This document shows, piece after piece, positions 17,857 to 58,901 of a stretch of DNA of 64,000 nucleotides. The notes beneath the pieces were generated by a model, which did no database searches, was not told where the DNA came from, and was given only the letters and a program-made list of their open reading frames with translations. The position numbers were made by a program, and so were the translations under genes. Every line of letters begins with the position of its first letter. The first letter of the stretch is position 1. The stretch covers positions 1-64,000 of the forward strand of contig NZ_JAQUVZ010000006.1 in the NCBI RefSeq assembly GCF_028693135.1, in the 5' to 3' direction. Origin of the DNA: Methanosarcina sp. (GTDB lineage: Archaea > Halobacteriota > Methanosarcinia > Methanosarcinales > Methanosarcinaceae).

Positions 17857-17940
17857 ATTTTCACGGTCGTTGATATTCAATTTGATATTCAATGCCGTTT
17901 TTGGATTGTTACTTTTAGCAGCATCAGAACTTATGCTGCT

Positions 17941-18090
17941 TATTGCTATCTGTTTTATTGTTATCTGCTTTATTGCTATCTGCTTTATTGTTATCTGCTT
18001 TATTGTTATCTGCTTTATTGTTATCTGCTTTATTGTTATCTGCTTTATTGTTATCTGCTTTATTGTTATCTGTTTTATTGCTATCTGCTT
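17941..18090. repeat. Ten tandem 15-bp repeats between aldolase and pyk
   Basis: Ten units of TATTGTTATCTGCTT (with a few C/T variants) fill the space between the aldolase stop codon, which is partly inside the last unit, and the pyk start. On the transcribed strand the unit is AAGCAGATAACAATA. The array would lie in the leader of pyk or the aldolase-pyk intergenic transcript. Confidence 0.95.
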
Positions 18091-46426: not shown

Positions 46427-46680
46427 GAATTGCGCCTCGGGAGTACGCGGTCCTTTTCGCTGCGCTCAAGAGGACTATTTTATGGTTTATTGTAGTGAAC
46501 TTCGTTGCGCTCAAGAGGGCTAATGATGGTTTATAGTAGCAAGCTACGCTCAAGTGGACTAATCTGTTAAACAGATCTGTATAGGTTTATAGTAGTGAAC
46601 TTTGCTTCGCTCAAGAGGGCTAATGATGGTTTATAGTAGCAAGCTGCGCTCAAGTGGACTAATCTGTTAAACAGATCTGT
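46427..46680 (-). repeat. Dispersed 39-bp-type element plus a duplicated 105-bp tract
   Basis: 46427-46476 is a minus-strand copy of the element seen in the 1242-1475 array (CCCGAATTGCGCCTCGGG ... CTCAAGAGGACT). Next to it two tracts of about 105 bp (from about 46480 and 46584) share TTTATAGTAG, GCTCAAGAGGGCTAATGATG and CTAATCTGTTAAACAGATCT, a tandem duplication that itself contains the element's CGCTCAAGAGG leader. Confidence 0.85.
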
Positions 46681-46856
46681 ATAAACAGATGCTGAGTTTT
46701 GCTATTGAGGGCGGATTTTTTACTGAGAATGAAACTCAAATGCTCCAGAAAATTCAAGAAAACTAAGTCTATTAAAGAACCAGAGTTTTCTGAAAAGCTA
46801 GCAGCTACTTTCATAATAAGGGACTGAGCTTGTATTTTTTAAAAAAGAAGAAAGTT

Positions 46857-46875: not shown

Positions 46876-46905
46876 ATCTGTAAGGTTTTCAATTTACATT
46901 TGGAC

Positions 46906-48315
46906 TTATTGTTTTGGGGGCCAGTTCTTCTCGATCCAGCCAGGTATACGGCCTGAGTCCATTGGACCAACCTTTACATTTGCACCTAGTGTATCTTCGA
47001 GGTCACCCTGCAGACGGGCTGATAGACCTGGAATGATAAGGGTGTTGTGGTTTGTGTCGGTCTTTAGATCGAAACCAGCCTTGTCGAAGGCGTCCTTTAC
47101 CTTTGCGGAAGTCAGCTGACCACCGGCAACTGCAGCTTCCACACCAATACCATCGGTGTCAACTGCAAGCAGCCAGCATACGATGCCATTTGCTGAGATA
47201 TCGCTTTCTACCGTGTAGTAGGTAAGGGCGAAGTTGGTGGTGAAGAATACCGGAGAGTCTTTGTCCGGGGCTCCAACCTTATACATCCCTCCGTCCACGG
47301 AGACAGGAGTCCTTGGGTCGGTGTAGATTGTTTCAGCCAGGTGCATTTCAGGCAGTGCTGCATATGGCTCCAGGCTGTGGAGTATCATAATGTCGCCGTA
47401 CCTGATTGTGAAGACTGAAGCAATAACGGTTTCCCAGTAGGATGCGCTGACAGGGTCTGCAATTCCTGCCATCCAGGCTGTGAGCGGGAGAGCCATGATC
47501 GGGTATGCGATCTCGGTGTCTCCCATAATGCCTGCTCTCCTGATTTTCAGGAAGTTTGTGAAGGAATCCTTCAGGCCTTTGCCGCTTGGGTAGGTCCCCG
47601 GGTCGAGCACAATGTCCTTAATTCCTGACTCTGCAAAGGTCTTTGCAAGGGTCTTAAGGGCATCGAGGTCATTGAAGGCTGAAACTACAACAGGCACCTT
47701 GTATTCAAGGGCGAGTTCTCCTACTTCTTTCCAGTTGTCCTTGTTTGCAGCGTAGAGCAGTGGGTTTTTATCCTTTGCAACCTCAAGTCCTGCCTTCAGG
47801 ACAGCGGGATTGAAGGAACAGAAGATCATAGGCAGGCCTATTTCCGCTACCTTCTTGACGGCTGCTGCGAACTTTGCAGGGTCGTTGGAAGTGGCTTTTA
47901 TTGCCACACCGTCGAGAAGCAGGTTTCGTCCTACATAGAACTTCTTGAAGTCAGCGATTTTGTTTACTCTCTCAATAAGGGCAGCTTCTTCGAGGTTGTC
48001 TGAAACATCGAAGAACAGCTTTGTCTTATTGAAGAAGGTAAGTTTGTGGCGGTACAAGACATCGTCTCCACCGATGTTTGCTGCCTTTTCGCCTACTCCT
48101 ATGGTAACCTGGCGGATCTCCGGGGCAAGGATAATATCGAGTTCTTTAAGCTTCTTTGCGTACTTCTTTTCCTTGACCAGGGGTGGGCATTCTGATGTCT
48201 TGCCGGACCTGTCAATCAGTTTGGAGGCAAAGGCCATACATGTAGGTTCACCACATTCTCCACAGTTTGTCTGGGGCAGGTACTTGTAGGCTTCTAATGG
48301 GCTGTTTATTTTCAT
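46906..48315 (-). CDS. cdhE: CODH/ACS gamma subunit CdhE, copy 1
   Basis: Large corrinoid iron-sulfur subunit of the acetyl-CoA decarbonylase/synthase complex; it moves the methyl group between tetrahydrosarcinapterin and the acetyl-CoA synthase site. 469 residues. The N-terminal 4Fe-4S motif NCGECGEPTCMAFASKL, the TIM-barrel methyltransferase-like body and a C-terminal corrinoid-binding region (NTLIIPGLSARLQGDLEDTLG) are present. It starts 4 bases after cdhD behind GGAGGTG. Identical base for base to copy 2 at 58954-60363. Confidence 0.97.
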   Translation of the reverse strand: MKINSPLEAYKYLPQTNCGECGEPTCMAFASKLIDRSGKTSECPPLVKEKKYAKKLKELDIILAPEIRQVTIGVGEKAANIGGDDVLYRHKLTFFNKTKLFFDVSDNLEEAALIERVNKIADFKKFYVGRNLLLDGVAIKATSNDPAKFAAAVKKVAEIGLPMIFCSFNPAVLKAGLEVAKDKNPLLYAANKDNWKEVGELALEYKVPVVVSAFNDLDALKTLAKTFAESGIKDIVLDPGTYPSGKGLKDSFTNFLKIRRAGIMGDTEIAYPIMALPLTAWMAGIADPVSASYWETVIASVFTIRYGDIMILHSLEPYAALPEMHLAETIYTDPRTPVSVDGGMYKVGAPDKDSPVFFTTNFALTYYTVESDISANGIVCWLLAVDTDGIGVEAAVAGGQLTSAKVKDAFDKAGFDLKTDTNHNTLIIPGLSARLQGDLEDTLGANVKVGPMDSGRIPGWIEKNWPPKQ

Positions 48316-48318
48316 GTT

Positions 48319-49632
48319 TTACACCTCCGTTCCGATCCAGTTGCTGATGTCAACAGGCTCTGCCTCAATTGAGCCAAAGAGGGTCTGTGTGATCTGCTTC
48401 AGGACTGCCACCGATGTTGGGTGCATCATCATGAATAGATCGTTTCCTGCAAGGGCAAGGGAGAGACCTGTTACGATTTCCCAGATAGGTCCTCTGTACT
48501 CTCTTGGGCCCCAGTCAGTGTCCTGACCCAATGGAGATCCAACCATCCATGATTCACGGGCACCCCATGCATTGGTGGTCCCTGAAGACATCGGGAAGGT
48601 CAGTTCGTCATCACCCATAAGGGCTGCAAGTCTGATGCGCTCCATGTTGGTGTAAGCGTAGTCGAGACCATACCCGAGGGCGGCAGTTGTTGGGTCCATG
48701 ATGATTCTGTCTCTGGGCACTTTGCACTGCTTCATTAGTTTCCTGTTAAGTTCCTTCTGGGCGTTCATGTCCAGCTGGGTCCAGGAAAGCACGTCGTGGT
48801 CATACTTTAATGCAGCTTCTGCGATTGCTGCATAGTCCAGGTTCAGGCTGGCAGATGCAAGGAGGCAGCGTTCGCCTTCCGCAACTTCTGCGGCTTTTGC
48901 CAGGACTTCGGGATCCTTCTGTGGGTTCCCTGATCCACCAATGGCTATTGGCACATCAACGGCCTGCAGGACTTCCTCAACGGTCTTGGCTGCGTCCTTG
49001 GGGGATGTGTCCTTAATGAGTGGGTCGGTTGAAATCAGGTGGATGGTGATCATGTCGGCGTTGAACTTGTCAACGTTCTTCTTTGCCCATTCTCCAGGGC
49101 TGTCCATGACCTCGTCGTAGTTCTCCTTGACAGCTTTTGCAAGCCCTATTCTCATGTCGAACACGTCTATTGTGACCTGGTTCCTGTTCGGCATTGGAGC
49201 ATCAAAGTAGAATGGAAGGGCTTTTTCGCCACCTACCATTACCCTCTTTCCACGGCTTCCGCCGTCTGCAGAGGTGTTTCCGATTGGAACTTCCTGAATC
49301 TGGGTTGCCCATTCTGCTATGTTTGCAACATCGAACTTTGCAGGAATGAGATCCTTAAGTTTCGGGGCTGCCAGAGCAGGAGCAATTGCGGGAGCAGCTG
49401 CTGAAGCTCCAAAGCCTACGGGGTACCCAAACATGCCTGCAAGTCTTGCAAAGTGCTGTGCAAGTACCGCACTTTCCTGCCCGAGGGCTGCGGCAAGCAT
49501 TGGGTCAAATCCCCCTCCGAGTCCACCGAGGTCAAGCTCAATGTCCCCTTCTATAGTCACACCTTCGAGGGATTCTACATCCATTCCCGCGAACATGTTT
49601 GTTATATCTGATAACTTCATTTTCTTTGCCAT
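48319..49632 (-). CDS. cdhD: CODH/ACS delta subunit CdhD, copy 1
   Basis: Small corrinoid-protein subunit that pairs with CdhE. 437 residues. It begins [37 protein letters not shown] and continues with a TIM barrel ([30 protein letters not shown]). A low-complexity Ala/Pro linker ([19 protein letters not shown]) lies near residue 85. The start has GTGAGG ahead. The reading frame and nucleotide sequence match the second copy (60367-61680) exactly. Confidence 0.97.
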
Positions 49633-49879
49633 GTAAACCTCACCGTTTCCGTAATTTTTCCATTTTTGTGAGTGACTGTATAATAAGGAATATAATACAG
49701 AACGTGTTTCCAGATCTTTTACCCTGATATAAGAACAGGGACCGGGGCAGGAACGAATCCTGCTCCGTTATTCTGTTTATTTTAAATGCCGTTTCAAGCT
49801 CTCAAACCGGATCTGGGTTCCTGTTCTCTTTTTCCGGTCGGTTTTCTGCATAATCCACAGGTTCAAAAGAAAGCTGGGG
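49633..49879 (-). other. 247-bp spacer between cooC and cdhD
   Basis: A rather long gap for an operon, also found unchanged in the second copy (61681-61927). It contains the cdhD ribosome site and AT-rich sequence that could carry an internal promoter or a processing site. No gene. Confidence 0.5.
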
Positions 49880-50641
49880 TCAGAGCCCCAGTTTTTGTAC
49901 TATTTTTTCGATTTCTACTGCAGCAACCGAATCATCCGGGATTTCAAAGAGAGGTATACCTTTTATGTCCATTTCCTCGATTTTCGGATCGAGAGGGATC
50001 ACACCTATCAGGTTCAGTTTCAGGTCCCCGGCCAGTTTGACAATCTCTTGACGGTTTGCATCTGTAACTTTGTTTGCAATAACGTGAATTCTGCCAACAT
50101 TTGAATCCAGTTCACTCACAAGTTCACGAATCCTTTCGGCAGTCTGGAACCCCCTTCTTGAGGCGTCAGTTACAACAATAAGATCATCAATATCCCGGAG
50201 AATCTTTCTACTGAAATGCTCAAGCCCGGCTTCCGCATCAATGACAACTATCTCATAATTCACGATCAGTTTGTCCATGATGCCGCGTAGGAGGTTGTTT
50301 ACGTAACAGTAACAACCTGTACCTTCGGGCCTGCCCATTACCAGCAGGTCATATCCCGGCATTTCTTCAATGATCTCATAGACTTTACTTTTAAGAATGG
50401 ATTCCTTGTTCATATCGGGGTTGTCAGGCCTTGGTTTTTTGATTTCAGTCTGCAAGGATTCCTTTGCATCCCCTACGGTTTTTACGTTCTCACAGCCAAG
50501 GGTTTCTGGCAGGTTAGTATCTGCGTCTGCATCAACTGCCAGTAAAAATTTCCCTTTTTTGGAAAGGTAGCGGATCATAAGAGCCGCTACCGCTGTTTTG
50601 CCAGTCCCACCTTTTCCCGTTATTGCAATTACTTTTGTCAC
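49880..50641 (-). CDS. cooC: CooC/AcsF-type nickel-insertion ATPase, copy 1
   Basis: P-loop ATPase of the MinD family that helps load nickel into CODH or ACS. About 253 residues. Walker A variant ITGKGGTGKTAVAALMIRYL, the DADADTNLPETLG region, and GTGCYCYVN with the CxC pair typical of CooC/AcsF. The open frame extends to a GTG at 50692, but GTG 50641, directly before TKVIAITGKGGTGKT, has AAAGGGG well placed, so it is used. It differs from copy 2 only in its N-terminal half. Confidence 0.92.
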   Translation of the reverse strand: MTKVIAITGKGGTGKTAVAALMIRYLSKKGKFLLAVDADADTNLPETLGCENVKTVGDAKESLQTEIKKPRPDNPDMNKESILKSKVYEIIEEMPGYDLLVMGRPEGTGCYCYVNNLLRGIMDKLIVNYEIVVIDAEAGLEHFSRKILRDIDDLIVVTDASRRGFQTAERIRELVSELDSNVGRIHVIANKVTDANRQEIVKLAGDLKLNLIGVIPLDPKIEEMDIKGIPLFEIPDDSVAAVEIEKIVQKLGL

Positions 50642-50696
50642 AGAATACCCCTTTGGATTGTTTTTCGGTTTTAGGCTATTGCCTTTCGTCACTCAG

Positions 50697-52106
50697 TTAT
50701 TTCTTTTCTTTCTTCTGGCTGATGACCATTTTGTCAATGGTGATCTTTGCGTTCTTGAAGGTCAGCTTTATTCCGCCGCCTGAACCGCCGGACATCATTG
50801 GCATTGCAGGCATCTGGAATCCGGATGCAGGCATCATCATTGGGGATGCTGCAACAGCTACTTCCTCTTCTTCTTCCTCTTCTTCTTCCTCTTCTTCCGC
50901 AGCTACCCAGGTGGCAACTATGGGGTGTTTCTTTTCCTCGAGGAAGGCTTTCAGAGATGCGATATCAGTTGCATCGTTCTCTGTTGCGATCTTGTCCTTC
51001 AGATCTGCAGGGATGGTTTCATCGATCTTCTCTTTGAGTATGGAGGGGAGCCAGACTACTCTGTTCCAGCCACCGTCAGCCTGGATGAACTTCGGGGAGT
51101 AGAAGTAGTTGACCCCAATTCCAAGGAAACCTACGATCTGCTTTCCGCCACCGGTCTGACCGGCCATTGTCGAGAAACCAATACCGTTAGGGGACATTCC
51201 CTGGTATTCTCTGTTAACCCAGCCAATACCGTCGACTTCAGGGATATAGAACCCGACTACTTCGAAGCAACCGCAGGATGTGTGCGGGGAGTCAAAGAAG
51301 GAGTGGAGTTTGATCTTGTCGAATTCACCGGCGGAGAGTTTCTTGGCAATATCGTTGACACCGGTGTATTCACCTGTAACAGCATCGAGAAGTTCACCTT
51401 TGGCAATTTCAAACTGTGGGCCTTCAGGGTCGACTTTTGCTGCTGCACGGCCGTCGAACCAGTTGATTGCACCACAAAGGGAAACTCTGTCAGGGGAAAC
51501 TACACAGACATTGGTCGGAGCAAAGGACTGGCAGAGAGTGCATCCGTAGAAGACATCAACATCTTCATCGTGCAGGTCCTTTGTCCTGGCGTCTCTTGCT
51601 TTGAAAATCTCCTTTGCTTCTGTCATCTGCTTTTCAACTTCAGCCTGTTCGGTGTAGAAGGTGACCTGCATCTTCTCGATAAAGGGCAGTTCTGTCTTGA
51701 AGAGCATCATGACAGCTCTTCCGAAGGGCTCGAAGGAGTCCATCTTCCCAGCTGTGTCCTTGGAAACTCTCATCCAGACATCGTACCTCTGGTTCAGGTG
51801 CATAATGCCCTGGCAGTAGTTGATGAAGTCGTGGACACGCCTTTCGACCACAGATTCAAGGTCAGCCTCGACAAGTTCTCCACCGATGTTGAAGATCATT
51901 GCCCAGGGGTAGGTCTTGCCCTCTTCCATGTCCTTGAGATCTGGACCGACAATTGTGACCTGGTCGTCTACAATTGCATCCATATCTGCTGCTCTGACGA
52001 GTTCGAGACCAAGGGATTTTGGGCCACCAAGTTCAACGAACATTCCTTCCTTTCTTACTCTTTCTCCTTCAAACATCGGGGAAATCTCGAATGGGTAATC
52101 TGCCAT
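50697..52106 (-). CDS. cdhC: Acetyl-CoA synthase beta subunit CdhC, copy 1
   Basis: Holds the Ni-Fe-S A-cluster where methyl, CO and CoA combine. 469 residues. A-cluster cysteine segments DVFYGCTLCQSFAPTNVC and SLCGAINW, and PHTSCGCFEVVGFYIPE. Near residue 395 a run of 13 glutamates (with one alanine-containing lead AAEEEE) and an Ala/Met/Pro-rich linker connect to a small basic tail (GGIKLTFKNAKITIDKMVISQKKEKK). Archaeal CdhC lacks the N-terminal CODH-binding domain of bacterial AcsB. It is followed by cooC; its C-terminal third differs slightly from copy 2. Confidence 0.96.
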   Translation of the reverse strand: MADYPFEISPMFEGERVRKEGMFVELGGPKSLGLELVRAADMDAIVDDQVTIVGPDLKDMEEGKTYPWAMIFNIGGELVEADLESVVERRVHDFINYCQGIMHLNQRYDVWMRVSKDTAGKMDSFEPFGRAVMMLFKTELPFIEKMQVTFYTEQAEVEKQMTEAKEIFKARDARTKDLHDEDVDVFYGCTLCQSFAPTNVCVVSPDRVSLCGAINWFDGRAAAKVDPEGPQFEIAKGELLDAVTGEYTGVNDIAKKLSAGEFDKIKLHSFFDSPHTSCGCFEVVGFYIPEVDGIGWVNREYQGMSPNGIGFSTMAGQTGGGKQIVGFLGIGVNYFYSPKFIQADGGWNRVVWLPSILKEKIDETIPADLKDKIATENDATDIASLKAFLEEKKHPIVATWVAAEEEEEEEEEEEEVAVAASPMMMPASGFQMPAMPMMSGGSGGGIKLTFKNAKITIDKMVISQKKEKK

Positions 52107-52130
52107 TGTGTTTTCGCCTCCTAAATCAAA

Positions 52131-52643
52131 TTATAGTAAGTCAATCAATTCATCCAGGGCAACAAAGTGTTCTTCCCTGCTTATGGTCCCGAAGGACATT
52201 GTTGCGTTCTGGACGTAGTCTTTACCAATTGAAATTGATTTTACTTTGGAAAAGTTCCTGGTTCCGGACAGTACCTGGTTAATATAGTACTTCTTGAATT
52301 CCAGGACTATTATGGTGTCGTAGTTACCTTTTCCGTCAAGTCCGGGCCATGCGGGGTCGGTTAAGTAGAATCCGAGCTGGTGCACATTGATGTACTTGGC
52401 ATCTACGTCCTTGTCTAAGAATCCATTGAGGGAGCTTCCGGTAGCTGCAATTGGAATGTTTGCCTTTTTGGCAATCTTAACTGCACGGTCCAGAATTTCT
52501 GGTCTAAGAACTCCGGTTCCGACCACAAGAAGTGGTCTCTTTGCCTTGGAGATCATCTTGGCTGCCATGTCAGGGTTGATTGCCTTTGAGGTGGTTACCC
52601 CGTAGCTGGTAAAGAGCTTTGTGTTCTTTGTAGTGTCAACCAT
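52131..52643 (-). CDS. cdhB: CODH epsilon subunit CdhB
   Basis: Non-catalytic partner of CdhA in the alpha2-epsilon2 CODH. 170 residues. The Rossmann-like fold of the ADP-ribose/FAD type is seen in [39 protein letters not shown], followed by the tail [34 protein letters not shown] ribosome site within the cdhA end (GGAGG) and a two-base gap to cdhA indicate coupling. The equivalent gene of the second operon lies beyond the window. Confidence 0.95.
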
Positions 52644-52645
52644 TT

Positions 52646-55066
52646 TCAGGCCTCCTTGCAGAGTCTCTTGAGGTTGGTGGGCTGTGCCGAGACGTCGAAC
52701 TTAATCTTCGGACCGGAGATGATCTTTTTCCTCTTCCAATCGATTTCCCAGCCTTTCTCTTCTTCGAGTTTCTTCATGAGGTCCGCACGCTTGGCGAGTG
52801 GCAGGTCGGCTTCGGTCCTGATGAACTTCCACCAGTCATCGGGCATTCCGCCGATATACTTTGCGTGGAGTTCCATCCAGTGGGTCAGCTTAATAGACCT
52901 ACCCATACTGTTGTCGGATGGGCGGATGCAGGCTTTTGCCATCATTGGGATTGCTTCCTGCCAGGTCTCTGCGGTGATCAGGAGGAATTCCGGTGCTGGA
53001 GGGATTGCCATCTCTTCGCCGTTTCTGGCGTCGTAGACCTTCCACTTCTCATCATCATAGTTCTTTGCGATCAGGGCTCTCCTGTACTTAGAACTGTGGG
53101 GACCAAGCACTGCCGGGATACCATAGATGTTACATCCGGTTCCTATTGAAGCTGCTTTCTGAGAGAACGCACCCCATGCAAGACCACAGGCACCAACACG
53201 GTTCAGGACATAGTCTGCGATTTCCGCGAGGTTGCCTCCCATGGTTCTGCCACCAAAGATAGCGGCGACTTTCTGGGCGGCTCCGGTAATGTGAGCATTC
53301 GAGACGCAGGACCCAATGTTAACCAGTCCACCAGACTGGAATCCACCGGGGAACCTCTCATAGAGAGTCTGGCCGTTCTCGTCCTTGTACATACCCATGT
53401 CCATGGACCCACATCCGGTACCGACAACGATATAGTTCCTCTTAAGGAATTCTTCTGCGATGTAGTACACGGATTTGGCTCCATCACCGTAGTTAGGACA
53501 TCCGATGATTGCGATGATACCGGGGGTGGTACCCATGACCAGGTTCAGACCTTCTGAACGGATTTCCGCATCAGATACCTGACCTCTGCCGGCTCTCATC
53601 CAGCCTTTCTCTTCTGCGATAACCTTCTGAGAGGCTTTTTCGATGACGCTAAGGATTGGGATTTCCTTCTTACAGACCTGTTCACAGCGGCGGCATCCGA
53701 TACACTGGTCGTGGAGATCTACAAGGTAGCTGTAGTCGCCTTCCTTGGCATGCTTCATAGCTTCCGGAATCTCCAGTTCTTCAGGGCAGACCAGGTAGCA
53801 GGAGCCACAGTCAGCACACTTGTCGACCCATTCCTTCATCTGCTCATCAGATGCGATTGTCCTGAATCCTGCTGCTTGGCGAATCGGGTGCATTACCTGG
53901 GTGAGCCTTACGGCGATTTCTCCAAGCTTATCGTAGTCAAGGATCACAGCACCCGGAATCGCTCCGGACTTGAGTTCCTCAATTGTCGCATCGACGTCCT
54001 GATCGTCCCTGCTGGGCAGGCCATACATGATCTTGGCGTTGGACGCAATAACGGGAATCCCAAGCTTCTGGGCTTCGGGTACGATGTCTCCACGGACACA
54101 CTGTTCATCAACAACAATGACGTCAGGCAGTCCTGTACGGATGATCTTGAGTTCCTGGGACATGGAACCGATGACCTTGGTGTAGGGAGCTCTCCTGTCG
54201 GCTTCCTTGTATCTGGTCAGGTCGATTGCGGTACAGCAGAGCCCACCGAGTTCCATCTTGTCGGTCAGGTCGTGCTCTTCCATGTAGTCCATCATGTAGG
54301 TGACACCGCCCACGTTGTGTCCGATAACACAGAGGAACGGTTTTTCCTTGTCAATGGTTCCGACACCCATCTCAATGAGTGGGGCTTCGGGATCGGCTTT
54401 CGGGAAGTCGAGGGCTGCGATCTGGACTATATCGGATATTTCCATTCCAACGTGGTCCAGGCTGCCGCTGAAGAGAGCCTTTGAGTCGTAGTCGATCTCT
54501 GCGGATTCCTGCCCGGCATGGACGGTTGCAAGGAGCTGGGTAAGCTGTTCCTCTGTGAACTCCATTGCAGGTTTGATTTCTCCGAGGGTCATTGGTCTCT
54601 GCCCGGTGGTAATCGTGATGTTAGGGGTCAGGACGTCGGATTGCCCAAGCTTGAGGGGTAAGTCTTCTCCGAAGACCTCAATCAGGTGGTCAAGCAGGTG
54701 GCGGCCATGGGCTGCGTGGCAGGCAGTACCGGTGATCACACGGAGGAAGAATTCCCTGCCGTTGTGGCCTAGCATGTCAATACCACAGGCGCCTCTCTTG
54801 TTGTTGGAGAGGTCACATGGGCCGTATGTGCAGTAGCAGCACTGGTCACACATAGGGGTGATTACAGGCTCATAACGGGCGAGTAATTTCAGGTTCCAGT
54901 CATCCCTGTAGGTTGCAAGACCAGGCCATGTGGATGGGCCCAAGGGGCCGAGATCTTTTGCTTTCTCGTCCGCGGCCTCCTTTGCTGCCCCTACAATATT
55001 ATTTATAGTGATCTGAACGGACTCCAGATCTTCTATAGAAAAACTCCCGGTAGTTAGGTTGCTCAT
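52646..55066 (-). CDS. cdhA: CODH alpha subunit CdhA
   Basis: Catalytic carbon monoxide dehydrogenase subunit with the Ni-Fe-S C-cluster and extra Fe-S clusters. 806 residues. The N-terminal cluster motif [28 protein letters not shown], the ferredoxin insert [20 protein letters not shown]...[12 protein letters not shown] (near residue 415), C-cluster region [10 protein letters not shown] and [15 protein letters not shown], and [24 protein letters not shown] are all intact. It is the first gene of the operon, behind GGAGGTAAAGC and a leader with a duplicated ATGCTTAAAGTCACTTT. The partner chain and C-terminus look complete. Confidence 0.97.
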
Positions 55067-55085
55067 TTTAGCTTTACCTCCTAAA

Positions 55086-55122
55086 TATGCTTAAAGTCAC
55101 TTTATATGCTTAAAGTCACTTT
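55086..55122 (-). repeat. Direct repeat next to the cdhA ribosome site
   Basis: Two adjacent copies of ATGCTTAAAGTCACTTT lie about 20 to 55 bases upstream of the cdhA start, in what should be the mRNA leader. Confidence 0.85.
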
Positions 55123-55194: not shown

Positions 55195-57045
55195 AGTTCC
55201 ACTATTTAAAGACATTTTTAGTAGATCGTTTTTAACTTTTTATAGGAATTACTCACTTACAATACAAAATCAAGTACAGTAAATTAAACAGTTAAAACTT
55301 TAATTTTAGAGGGTCGGGGGTTTACTGTTCTTGTTTTAGACCTCAAATGTGTAAGTCCTATAAATGTTGCGATCTCAGAATAATAAAAGAGATCTGAGAG
55401 ACTATCCGAAAAGTTCTATGCATGTTGTAAAATTACAATTAGTGTCAAGTATCCGGAATCCGTTCGTTTGTACATGATGCCGATTGTATAAGTTACAGTA
55501 AGTCACAGCACTTTTCGAATAAATCCTTAAATTACACATAAGCGACGTGTTATAAATAACTTTCATTTTTGTTCGGTTTAGATACAAAATAAGAAAAGCT
55601 TGGTATAAATCTTATCTAAACTCTTATGAGTCGTTGACTCATGACGTCCCACTGTTTCAAGACATTTTTAGTAGATAATTTTTGACTTTTTATATAAGTT
55701 ACTCACTTACACTACAAAATCAAGTACAGTAAATTAAGCAGTTAAAACTTTTTTTAGAAGATTGGGGGTCCAATGCTCTTGTTTTATGCCTCAAGTGGGT
55801 AAGTCCTATATCAGTAAATGTTGTGATCTCTGAATACTAAAAGAGATCTAAGAGATTATCCAAAAAGTTCCATGCATGTTGTAAAATTACAATTAGTGTC
55901 CATTATCCGGAATCCGTTCGTTTGTGCATGATGCCGGTAGTAAAAGTTACAGTAGGTCACAGCCCTTTTCGAACACGCTCTTAAATTACTCATAAGCGAC
56001 ATGTTATAAATAATTTTCATTTTTGTTCGGTTTAGATACATAATAAGAAAAGCGTAGTATAAATCCTATCTAAACTCTATGAGTCGTTGACTCACGATGT
56101 TCCAACTGTTTAAATATAGTTTTTACAGGTCGTTTTTAACATTATATAAGAGGTTACACACTTACTATACAAAATTAAGTGCAGTAAATTAAACAGTTAT
56201 AACTTGAATTTGACTTAACTTGAATTTAACTTGTATTTTCGAGAGTTGGACGTTCACTACTTTTTTGTTTAAACTTCAAGTGGGTAAGTCCTGTATCAGT
56301 AAATGTTGTGATCTCAGAATACTAAAAGAGATAAGAGACTATCCGAAAAGTTCCGTGCATGTTGTAAAATTACAATTAGTGTCCATTATCCGGAATCCGT
56401 TCATTTGTGCATGATACCGGTAGTAAAAATACGTAGGTCACAGTACTTTTCGAATATCTCTTTAAATTACACATATGAGATATGTTATAAATACCTTTCT
56501 TTTCGGTTTGGTTTGGATACAAAATAAGAAAAGAGTAGTATAAATCCTATCTAAACTCTATGAGTCGTTGACTCATGATGTTCCAACTGTTTAAATATAG
56601 TTTTCACAGGTCGTTTTTAACTTTATATAGAGGTTACACACTTACTATACAAAATCAAGTACAGTGAATTAAACGGTTCTATCTTGAATTTAACTTGTAT
56701 TTTCGAGAGTTGAACGTTCACTACTTTTGTTTAAACCTCAAGTGGGTAAGTCCTTTACCAGTAAATGTTGTGATCTCAGAATACTAAAAGAGATATAAGA
56801 GACTATTCAAAAAGTTCCGTGCATGTTGTAAAATTACAATTAGTGTCCATTATCCGGAATCCGTTCATTTGTGCATGATACCGGTAGTAAAAATACGTAG
56901 GTCACAGTACTTTTCGAATATCTCTTTAAATTACACATATGAGATATGTTATAAATACCTTTCTTTTCGGTTTGGTTTGGATACAAAATAAGAAAAGAGT
57001 AGTATGAATCCTATCTAAACTCTATGAGTCGTTGACTCATGATGA
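55195..57045 (-). repeat. Four tandem ~465-bp promoter/leader-like units upstream of cdhA
   Basis: Four diverged copies follow each other. Using the anchor ACTATCCGAAAAGTT, they align at 55401, 55855, 56338 and 56802 (spacings 454, 483, 464). On the transcribed strand each unit has, in order, an ATGAGTC-AAC-GACTCAT-type hairpin (55626, 56079, 56560, 57024), TATA-like stretches (GATTTATAC and ATTTATAAC), an inverted-repeat element of about 135 bp ending TATCCGAAAAGT, and CACTTGAGG and TGTACTTGATTTTGTA-type blocks. Together they probably form the regulatory region of cdhA. Small frames inside (55402-55587, 55856-56041) are alike in two copies but broken in the others, so they are not called as genes. 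Confidence 0.85.
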
Positions 57046-57589
57046 AGCATGAAAAACAGCATCTTATACTCAGTTTTTCATAGGAAAAGAACATGAAATT
57101 CTTCGAATAACAGGCACAAAAAAACGAAAGTACCAGTGATTAGCAGAATTTTTATGTTAAATCAGGTTTAAAAGGCAGAAAATGGTCACAGGACTACCTG
57201 ATATATGGTGCAAAATTATGAAGTAAACGTTATAGTTATAATCGTAGTTTATACCATTAGGGGTTTATTGCGATTGGTTTTGTATTTAAAACCTCTATTT
57301 GACAGATCCTGTTAATTAATTCAGTAATTTCTTACACAAAACAAGTTGTTTCGACACATTACATTTTGGTAAAATAAAAAATGTCAAAACTCATAAGCTG
57401 CTAGACAAAACTTTGAATTGCAGATAAATACAGAACCATGAAGCCCATTTAGACATTGTATAATGTATACTTCTGTCAAATTTGGGTAAAATACAGAATC
57501 TAAAAATGGATTCAAAGCTTATTAATTAAATCAATAGTTAAATTGTTTTAGCACTGGTTATTTATACTACCTCTAGTTTGTGTAATTTG
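57046..57589. other. Spacer between the repeat block and the DUF134 gene
   Basis: AT-rich, no gene seen. It separates the upstream regions of cdhA (minus) and the DUF134 gene (plus). Confidence 0.5.
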
Positions 57590-58096
57590 ATGGTCAATAG
57601 AGTTAAACGCAGGGTCTCTTGCTTTCCGAAGGCCACCTATTACAAGCCCAGAGAAATCCCTCTTTGCTGTTTGGAAATTGCCAACCTATCCATAGAAGAG
57701 CTTGAAGCTATTCGTCTTTGCGACCTTCTCCAGATAGAGCAGAACGAAGCTGCTGAAAGAATGGGAATATCCAGGAAAACTTTCTGGAACGACCTCCAAA
57801 AGGCCCGGCAGAAGGTAGCTGATGCTCTTGTAAACGGAAAAGCTATCGAGATCTCTGGAGGAGAATACGTTAATACTGGTGAATGCAAGGTCGATTATCT
57901 CTGCAAAGAATGCGATCATGTGTGGGAACCAAAGTACGACCAGAATCGTCCCACAAGCTGTCCTAATTGTAATTCCAATTTAATTTTCCGACGCGGTGGC
58001 GATGGAAGAGGAAAGAGGTTTATTGATAATGATTATTGTTGCCCTAAAGAAAAGGGAAGCAGCAGGAATACTAGTGAAGGAAGCAAAAAAAAGTGA
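57590..58096 (+). CDS. DUF134/UPF0251 helix-turn-helix and zinc-ribbon protein
   Basis: 168 residues. The N-terminal sigma-70-region-4-like helix-turn-helix of the DUF134 family (YYKPREIPLCCLEIANLSIEELEAIRLCDLLQIEQNEAAERMGISRKTFWNDLQKARQKVADALVNGKAIEI) is followed by a zinc ribbon (CKECDHVWEPKYDQNRPTSCPNCNSNLIFRR) and a Lys/Ser tail. It is predicted to bind DNA. An upstream TTG at 57578 could also start it. It is coupled by overlap (GTGA) to a small NifX-like frame, matching the common genomic pairing of DUF134 with dinitrogenase-cofactor-like proteins. Confidence 0.88.
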   Translation: MVNRVKRRVSCFPKATYYKPREIPLCCLEIANLSIEELEAIRLCDLLQIEQNEAAERMGISRKTFWNDLQKARQKVADALVNGKAIEISGGEYVNTGECKVDYLCKECDHVWEPKYDQNRPTSCPNCNSNLIFRRGGDGRGKRFIDNDYCCPKEKGSSRNTSEGSKKK

Positions 58097-58233: not shown

Positions 58234-58901
58234 ACATAACATGTGATTCGTTGCGCACTATAAATATAAAAAAAGCAGAAGAGTTTAAAACTAAGGTTTA
58301 TAATTTAAAAGCTAGAAGATAACTTTTTTCTATATATTTCCTTCAACTGGAATGAAATGTATACAAAAAGAAGCAATCTTAGAATTAGACGGTGTCTTAA
58401 ATTATTGTGGACTTTTGTGCGAATTAGCTCGGCTAAATAGTGAATTTTTGGTAGTTTCTTTTGAAAAACATACAAAAAGTAAGTCATTCACAATAATTAT
58501 GAGTTTTGGAGAACTGGATCGGATTCGGATAATCGTTCTTTTTTCCAAATCCAAGAATCATTTTTATAGTTCCGTAATAATTTCCATATTCTAAGGGCCT
58601 ATCCGAAAAGTGGTTGCCTGCTGCAACTTTTACAATATGCATATGCAAAACCGGAACGGATGCTCTGGATATCATAGACTTATTTGACTTTTCAACATGC
58701 ACGGAACTTTTCGGATAGGCTCTTAAACGGGATTCTATGGATATCAACCGTTCAGTGAGTTCTTTAATTTGAGATTCAAGACTTACAGTAAGCAGTAACT
58801 TCAGGGTGTGAAGCACACAAAGCAAGAATCTCTTCACGTTTCACAAATTAAAAAAGAAATCATTTTATATCCAATTTTTTTCTCGAAAAAAGGAAAAATG
58901 G
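58234..58901. other. Spacer with relics and an inserted element
   Basis: No clear gene. On the minus strand 58731-58837 encodes MKRFLLCVLHTLKLLLTVSL and continues ESQIKELTERLISIESRL, a coiled-coil start that runs straight into the element at 58592-58725. It resembles the N-terminus of a transposase or other coiled-coil protein interrupted by insertion. A plus frame at 58352-58594 has no recognisable domain. Confidence 0.45.
58592..58725. mobile_element. 134-bp MITE-like element
   Basis: Terminal inverted repeats of 20 bp: TAAGGGCCTATCCGAAAAGT at the left and TAAGAGCCTATCCGAAAAGT as the complement of the right end (one mismatch). No internal gene. The same ends and size occur in each ~465-bp unit upstream of cdhA (for example 55395-55530, with ACTATCCGAAAAGTT and ACTTTTCGAATAAA). 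It is therefore a non-autonomous family whose parent is not in this window. Confidence 0.75.

Follow-up and report, generated by a model that had tools for sequence, protein, structure and literature searches.

The four-fold tandem array upstream of cdhA is best explained as the promoter-leader module of an extra cdh (CODH/ACS) operon, kept in multiple copies. Inside the hairpin of each unit lies an 18-mer, which in units 2-4 is exactly antisense to the 5' end of the leader of the other cdh operon. We consider the chances evenly balanced that the units work as promoters and that their RNAs regulate in trans, by antisense pairing, so as to link the two CODH/ACS operons. Methane formation from acetate has CODH/ACS as its central enzyme, of which many Methanosarcina keep two copies. 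What the array offers is a specific sequence link between two cdh operons that is kept across three genera.

Tandem Repeats Finder, applied to the window (the whole stretch of DNA analysed, 64,000 nt), reported a single array at 55196-57044 with 4.0 copies and a score of 2249, against 409 for the runner-up tandem repeat of the window, which confirms the four-fold unit before cdhA described in an earlier note on this DNA. As cdhA is on the minus strand with its ATG at 55066, the array reads from right to left; units 1 to 4 measure 450, 454, 481 and 464 bp, and 129 bp of non-array sequence lie between the array and the ATG.

55196-55645, minus strand: unit 1, nearest cdhA; probable promoter and leader of cdhA
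55646-56099, minus strand: unit 2
56100-56580, minus strand: unit 3
56581-57044, minus strand: unit 4, farthest from cdhA, adjoining DUF134
52646-55066, minus strand: cdhA of the array-bearing operon

A search of the same genome recovered four full copies, with 100, 93, 82 and 80% identity to unit 4, and no further full copy outside the array. The array is noncoding, and coding units were rejected because the 39 units examined have no conserved reading frame in common. Membership of a known RNA family was rejected since Rfam gave no match at gathering score within the array; relaxed thresholds produced one chance-level match inside it, to SNORD111 (20.4 bits versus a gathering score of 46). 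Arrays of the same kind recur in other genomes, including the single contigs of G001, G004, G007, G009 and G035, and we therefore do not regard it as an assembly artefact. The window holds other arrays at 17931-18090 (15 bp x 10.7), 1241-1476 (39 bp x 6.1) and 46484-46683 (100 bp x 2), and a 19-bp exact tandem duplication lies at 55085-55122, just upstream of the cdhA ribosome-binding region.

Judged by its sequence, each unit is a mosaic: its promoter faces cdhA and resembles the one in front of the DUF134 gene, and the other parts are a MITE-derived hairpin and a second inverted-repeat element. In the sense of cdhA, the order within a unit is ATGAGTC hairpin, promoter, palindromic core, and then a T-rich inverted repeat and the second inverted-repeat element.

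57024-57040, minus strand: ATGAGTC hairpin of unit 4 (the others at 55626-55642, 56079-56095 and 56560-56576)
55529-55558, minus strand: promoter block of unit 1, TATTTATA box plus the stretch to GTGTAATTT
55983-56012, minus strand: promoter block of unit 2
56464-56493, minus strand: promoter block of unit 3
56928-56957, minus strand: promoter block of unit 4
55398-55526, minus strand: MITE-1 derived hairpin of unit 1, ends approximate
55852-55980, minus strand: MITE-1 derived hairpin of unit 2, ends approximate
56335-56463, minus strand: MITE-1 derived hairpin of unit 3, ends approximate
56799-56927, minus strand: MITE-1 derived hairpin of unit 4, ends approximate
56772-56794, minus strand: T-rich inverted repeat 3' of the hairpin, unit 4 (also 55371-55393, 55825-55847 and 56310-56332)
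55241-55362, strand not given: second inverted-repeat element (MITE-2-like) of unit 1, with counterparts in the other units
58599-58718, strand not given: solitary dispersed copy of MITE-1

The ATGAGTC hairpin, the TATA-like boxes and the inverted-repeat element are kept in all four units, as the earlier note had it; the hairpin reads ATGAGTC(GTT)GACTCA, with a different final base in unit 2, and a TATTTATA box faces cdhA every time. This box is followed by a conserved stretch terminating in GTGTAATTT, and transcription of a unit would begin about 25 nt past the box. The TAT.TATA box is invariant in 37 of 37 aligned unit copies (one of two identical L066 units was dropped from the original 38). 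Such a conserved cdhA-facing promoter in every unit makes it plausible that the array provides several start sites, one of the two roles previously proposed for it.

The other proposed role, titration of a regulator, is made plausible by the gene that adjoins the array.

57578-58096, plus strand: DUF134 gene (helix-turn-helix plus zinc ribbon), divergent from cdhA
57557-57588, plus strand: DUF134 gene promoter, like the unit promoters but in the opposite orientation

The DUF134 promoter is nearly the same as that of the units, and the gene probably starts at ATG 57590, which would give it little or no leader. Twenty-two DUF134 upstream regions align at the promoter block, and a search with a unit profile found a like block upstream of six of the seven examined DUF134 genes that lie away from arrays (L180-L184 and L194, with L185 negative; E-values 1e-6 to 3e-4). 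DUF134 adjoins the array in all 18 array-bearing loci. At two loci where it stands away from cdhA (L180 and L184), DUF134 is followed by a gene for a NifX-like 124-residue protein, and at L180 a Mrp/MinD-like ATPase gene precedes it; both were named by eye.

The palindromic core, about 130 bp long, belongs to a dispersed MITE family (MITE-1). Outside the array, the same genome contains ten end pairs of its terminal inverted repeats spanning 120-125 bp, and these dispersed copies align with the unit cores along their length, so that the hairpin core has the terminal inverted repeats of a MITE. It also has a related transposase: elsewhere in this genome a pair of the same ends, 861 bp across, encloses an IS4/5-type transposase ORF (Pfam DUF4096, DDE_Tnp_1). 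By eye, the MITE flanks look TAA/TTA-like, a possible trace of a target-site duplication. The hairpin shows weak covariation, with 4 of 24 pairs supported, and this was rejected as proof of an RNA; the palindrome is MITE-derived anyway. The T-rich inverted repeat past the hairpin, with a mean identity of 92% among farthest units, may serve as a terminator. For the second inverted-repeat element, the end sequence has 24 genome matches, five of them inside the array, compared with one for the control. Copies of this element also occur near other cdh genes, upstream of cdhA in G014 (L142:2907-3041) and between cooC and cdhD in G005 (L085:14710-14834).

The cdhA leader of M. thermophila is reportedly 371 nt long and subject to early termination depending on substrate. 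We take the start of that leader to be at -371, which TTATATAGAT near -398 would fit. An ancestral leader with TTATATAGAT at this position is common to the second operon of our genome and to the single operon of the array-less genomes whose leaders were compared. Neither TTATATAGAT nor the ancestral leader sequence is present in the units, which are therefore not a leader of the M. thermophila type, and no unit match was found upstream of cdhA in those array-less genomes or upstream of the second-operon cdhA in our own. The comparison with the second operon's leader that the earlier note had proposed revealed no resemblance outside the 18-mer and the last ~100 nt, and the units were rejected as copies of that leader. 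The idea that a known cdh leader had been amplified thus gives way to a different module tied to the extra cdh operon. Because the last ~100 nt before the array-bearing cdhA still resemble, by eye, the end of the ancestral leader, the alignment suggests that the units replaced its front part. In two loci (L130 and L131, of G008 and G010) an ancestral leader precedes a CdhA that is 96% identical to the array-bearing CdhA; since these pair an array-type CdhA with the ancestral leader, the operons may have swapped leaders and coding sequences.

Arrays of two to four copies beside DUF134, as the leader of the extra cdh operon, were found in 18 genomes of Methanosarcina and sister genera. Fourteen belong to the genus, with the array beside DUF134 and, where the contig reaches it, cdhA; the other four are the sister-genus genomes G034 (STD2_68), G035, G036 (BM5_bin.6) and G037 (BL5_bin.6). 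Some unit match is present in 21 of the 30 genus genomes, although in several it is only a dispersed MITE or shorter pieces. Unit spacing is about 460 bp in our genome, about 310-640 bp in G003, G004, G005, G025, G027 and G029, where middle copies are shortened or remnants, and 1196-1291 bp in G001, G011, G020, G022 and BL5, where in the majority of cases the copies are separated by broken pieces of DUF134 or cdhA.

The array goes with a second cdh operon. All 12 genus genomes in which the contig with the array reaches cdhA have at least two cdhA (G001 has three; G025 and G027, whose contigs break at the array locus, stand outside the 12), compared with a single cdhA in 13 of 13 other genus genomes where cdhA was found, some of these being incomplete drafts. 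G015 is uncertain, with a DUF134 84% identical to ours near a contig end and a DUF134 remnant adjoining, and its array could be missing from the assembly. The sister-genus genome G033 (STCSWMC_2, L074) has a cdhA 88% identical to the array-bearing one over the first 135 residues, with no unit in the 5.4 kb and no 18-mer in the 2.6 kb searched upstream, and a second cdhA cut by the contig end; its upstream region may represent a third kind, or a loss. G038 has two cdhA, the second starting at a contig end, so that any array before it would fall outside the contig, and the 18-mer is absent upstream of the third cdhA of G001. These exceptions leave our estimates unchanged.

In our genome the second cdh operon lies behind the DUF134 gene, with its cdhA starting at contig position 67111. 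The two tandem operons (window 46888-55098; contig 58936-67143) share 91.8% identity across 8.2 kb, spread unevenly; their CdhD proteins are identical and CooC and CdhC are 98.9% and 98.5% alike, versus 74% for CdhB and 78% for CdhA, as if gene conversion had kept the downstream genes alike and not cdhA and cdhB.

The ancestral leader carries the 18-mer in the sense direction, at -349 to -378, and the units carry it in antisense; its target presumably covers about +2 to +19 of the other leader.

55437-55454, minus strand: 18-mer of unit 1, two mismatches to the other leader
55891-55908, minus strand: 18-mer of unit 2, its RNA exactly complementary to the 5' end of the other leader (contig 67461-67478)
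56374-56391, minus strand: 18-mer of unit 3, exact
56838-56855, minus strand: 18-mer of unit 4, exact

With this exact antisense match, a unit RNA could pair over 18 bp with the very start of the other cdh leader. These 18 nt are the longest exact match between the two leader regions of our genome, compared with at most 16 in 500 shuffles. Searches used TTAGTGTYYATTATCC across the genus and AATTAGTGTNNATTATCC across the family (111 genomes), and exact matches to AATTAGTGTNNATTATCC numbered 54 in the family, with none for the control. Of these, 52 lie upstream of a cdhA on the same contig and the remaining two in units of G025, whose contig ends before cdhA. The upstream comparison covers single copies of loci with at least 300 nt upstream and alignments beginning within the first three residues of cdhA. 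Among 13 array-less genus genomes, the ancestral 18-mer is exact in six and changed in seven; L073 (UBA293), where it is also changed, is not one of the 13. Since genomes devoid of the array keep the 18-mer too, its sequence conservation indicates that it has some role without the unit.

In all 17 genomes compared, the 18-mer of the farthest unit matches the other leader of its own genome, and the addition of G035 brings the count to 18 of 18. Three genomes in which the other leader is differently mutated carry the same mutation in the farthest unit: our own (CC), KYL-1 (GT) and BL5_bin.6 (ACCC). The permutation P for own-pair matching is 0.0002, and the difference between farthest units (17 of 17 exact) and nearest units (7 of 16) gives a Fisher P of 0.0003; these values rest on the 17 genomes before G035 was added (7 of 17 nearest units with it), and they overstate independence because the genomes are related, even if each of the three matched changes is a mutation of its own. 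The nearest unit of G025, cut by the contig end, stands outside the nearest-unit count; the other leaders of G025 and G027 come from the 18-mer searches, and their place before cdhA from cdhA mapping. The 17-genome table comprises unit matches of at least 100 bits, the weaker ones being short remnants. Middle units of G003, G004, G005, G027 and G029 are not exact. In our genome, because unit 1 carries two mismatches, the leader of cdhA itself is, on sequence, not the best partner of the other leader.

Identity among farthest units is 97-100% in the 18-mer stretch versus 85% in the promoter and 67-92% in other parts, which argues that the constraint on this 18-mer is specific; among nearest units the stretch is 92-93% identical. 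The units thus display the conserved complementarity with compensating changes expected of a trans-acting antisense sRNA, a pattern that points to cross-talk between the operons and not only to additional promoters. Short-duplex energies are best for the own pair in four of four sequence classes. Energies of full-length duplexes carried too much noise to tell own and foreign pairs apart; in 6 of 15 genomes (G001, G004, G005, G009, BM5 and STD2) the own pair did no better than the others did on average. Predicted mean unpaired values for the 18-mer run from 0.38 to 0.80 in units, most of them 0.41-0.66, and from 0.32 to 0.73 in the other leader, compared with RNA means of 0.40-0.51. Overall these values lie near the RNA mean, and by this prediction the accessibility of the 18-mer does not clearly exceed that of the remaining RNA. 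The full-length energy and accessibility set consists of unit copies with the promoter word, which leaves aside one copy each of G003 and BM5.

A less probable but still serious alternative is that the 18-mer is a DNA site for a cdh-specific transcription factor, inverted in the unit, such that both operons answer to one regulator and the array multiplies its sites. DNA-binding sites can be inverted, the 18-mer sits at what we take to be the start site of the ancestral promoter, and exact copies occur only at cdhA leaders and in array units. This alternative keeps its weight because the 18-mer is retained, exact or often changed (7 of 13), in all 13 array-less genomes. Changes that match inside one genome, and that fall at different positions from one genome to the next, are less expected of a DNA site. 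Against it, too, are a distance from the inferred unit start that varies by a few bases (63-74, mostly 68-74) and the retention of the 18-mer in every genome by the farthest unit alone. The first two bases of the 18-mer also weigh against it: the other leader has AA there in all 17 array-bearing genomes, and 5 of 13 array-less genomes have these bases altered (Fisher P 0.009, kinship uncorrected). The ancestral 18-mer as a whole is changed in 3 of 17 array-bearing versus 7 of 13 array-less genomes (P 0.056, kinship uncorrected), or 8 of 14 if G024 is counted (P 0.031, kinship uncorrected), and we lean on neither value.

We consider it improbable that the units are multiple promoters or operators and nothing more, in which case DUF134 or another factor would bind them, the copies would strengthen or grade expression or titrate the regulator, and the 18-mer would be incidental. 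The near-identity of unit and DUF134 promoters, the invariant TATA box and the constant presence of DUF134 beside the array all speak for such an arrangement, but it does not account for the 18-mer being better conserved than any other part of the farthest unit, nor for its match to the other leader in 18 of 18 genomes. Neutral debris, that is, tandem duplication of MITE-rich intergenic DNA with gene conversion keeping the copies alike, is already disfavoured and very improbable: the units do hold two mobile-element-like repeats, and the duplicated block of several relatives includes broken DUF134 and cdhA pieces, but the array persists in three genera, each lineage with its own spacing, and it has an invariant TATA box and an 18-mer that co-changes with a distant locus.

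Under the antisense reading that we prefer, each unit would start its own RNA. The nearest unit would furnish the cdhA leader proper, and the upstream units, above all the farthest, would also give short RNAs that could terminate in the T-rich repeat past the hairpin. By base-pairing in trans with the leader of the other operon at its 5' end, these RNAs could alter its elongation, stability or translation, and the two isozyme operons would thereby be tuned to one another. DUF134 is probably a repressor or an activator of its own gene and, by way of the promoter that they have in common, of the units, and copy number may set the dose. All of this is predicted: that the units are transcribed, that their RNAs end in the T-rich repeat, that these RNAs pair, and in which direction they act. 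We hold somewhat more tentatively, at a little under even chances, that a mobile element became an RNA link between isozyme operons, the duplicated cdh operon having gained a DUF134-type promoter together with a MITE hairpin that evolved an exact antisense to the nascent 5' end of its sister, after which the copies multiplied and those upstream of the leader unit took on the role of trans regulators dosed by copy number. If the pairing is real, a domesticated mobile element would be an antisense regulator between archaeal isozyme operons, and paralogous operons in an archaeon would be cross-regulated by complementary leader RNAs; if the 18-mer is instead a DNA site, the binding site of a cdh regulator would be revealed.

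Published work, as far as the accessible parts of the sources go, bears on these operons in several ways. In M. acetivorans, which has two cdh operons, expression of both is higher on acetate than on trimethylamine (PMC12918732), and a review reports that CdhA3 is theorized to control the two isoforms at the transcriptional and post-transcriptional level (PMC4652020). A study of RNA half-lives cites earlier work on post-transcriptional control of the cdh operon (PMC5112694). In the accessible text of a promoter study of M. acetivorans that searched for upstream repeats, cdh is not named among the mapped gene clusters (PMC2838876), and the accessible part of PMC7399021 holds nothing on the array, the DUF134 link or the 18-mer. 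The literature searched, with most subscription papers outside reach, yielded no recognised description of any of the three. The antisense relation between the unit 18-mer and the 5' end of the other operon's leader, as seen in the sequence, appears to be a new finding.

Among known systems, the long cdhA leader of M. thermophila resembles the array in preceding the same gene as a long leader, and both leader kinds carry the 18-mer. The units differ from it in having another promoter and sequence, in being repeated and in carrying the 18-mer in antisense; the second operon's leader is of the kind whose TATA-like box fits the reported M. thermophila start. Like sRNA41 of M. mazei, which reportedly represses ACDS mRNAs by masking ribosome binding sites, the proposed RNAs would act in trans on cdh (ACDS) mRNAs in Methanosarcina (PMC5867862). 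In contrast to what is described for sRNA41, the predicted target here is the 5' end of a leader rather than ribosome sites, and the predicted source of the RNA is the leader region of a paralogous cdh operon. sRNA154 of M. mazei is likewise a structured RNA whose loops pair with target mRNAs, but it is a nitrogen regulator, and the accessible description mentions no tandem array or MITE origin (PMC5867862). MITEs of the IS4/5 type share with the hairpin core their terminal inverted repeats, a length of about 130 bp and a transposase gene with the same ends in the genome; the unit copy, in contrast, occupies a single fixed locus in all three genera, its ends are worn, and it has acquired a conserved 18-mer in its interior.
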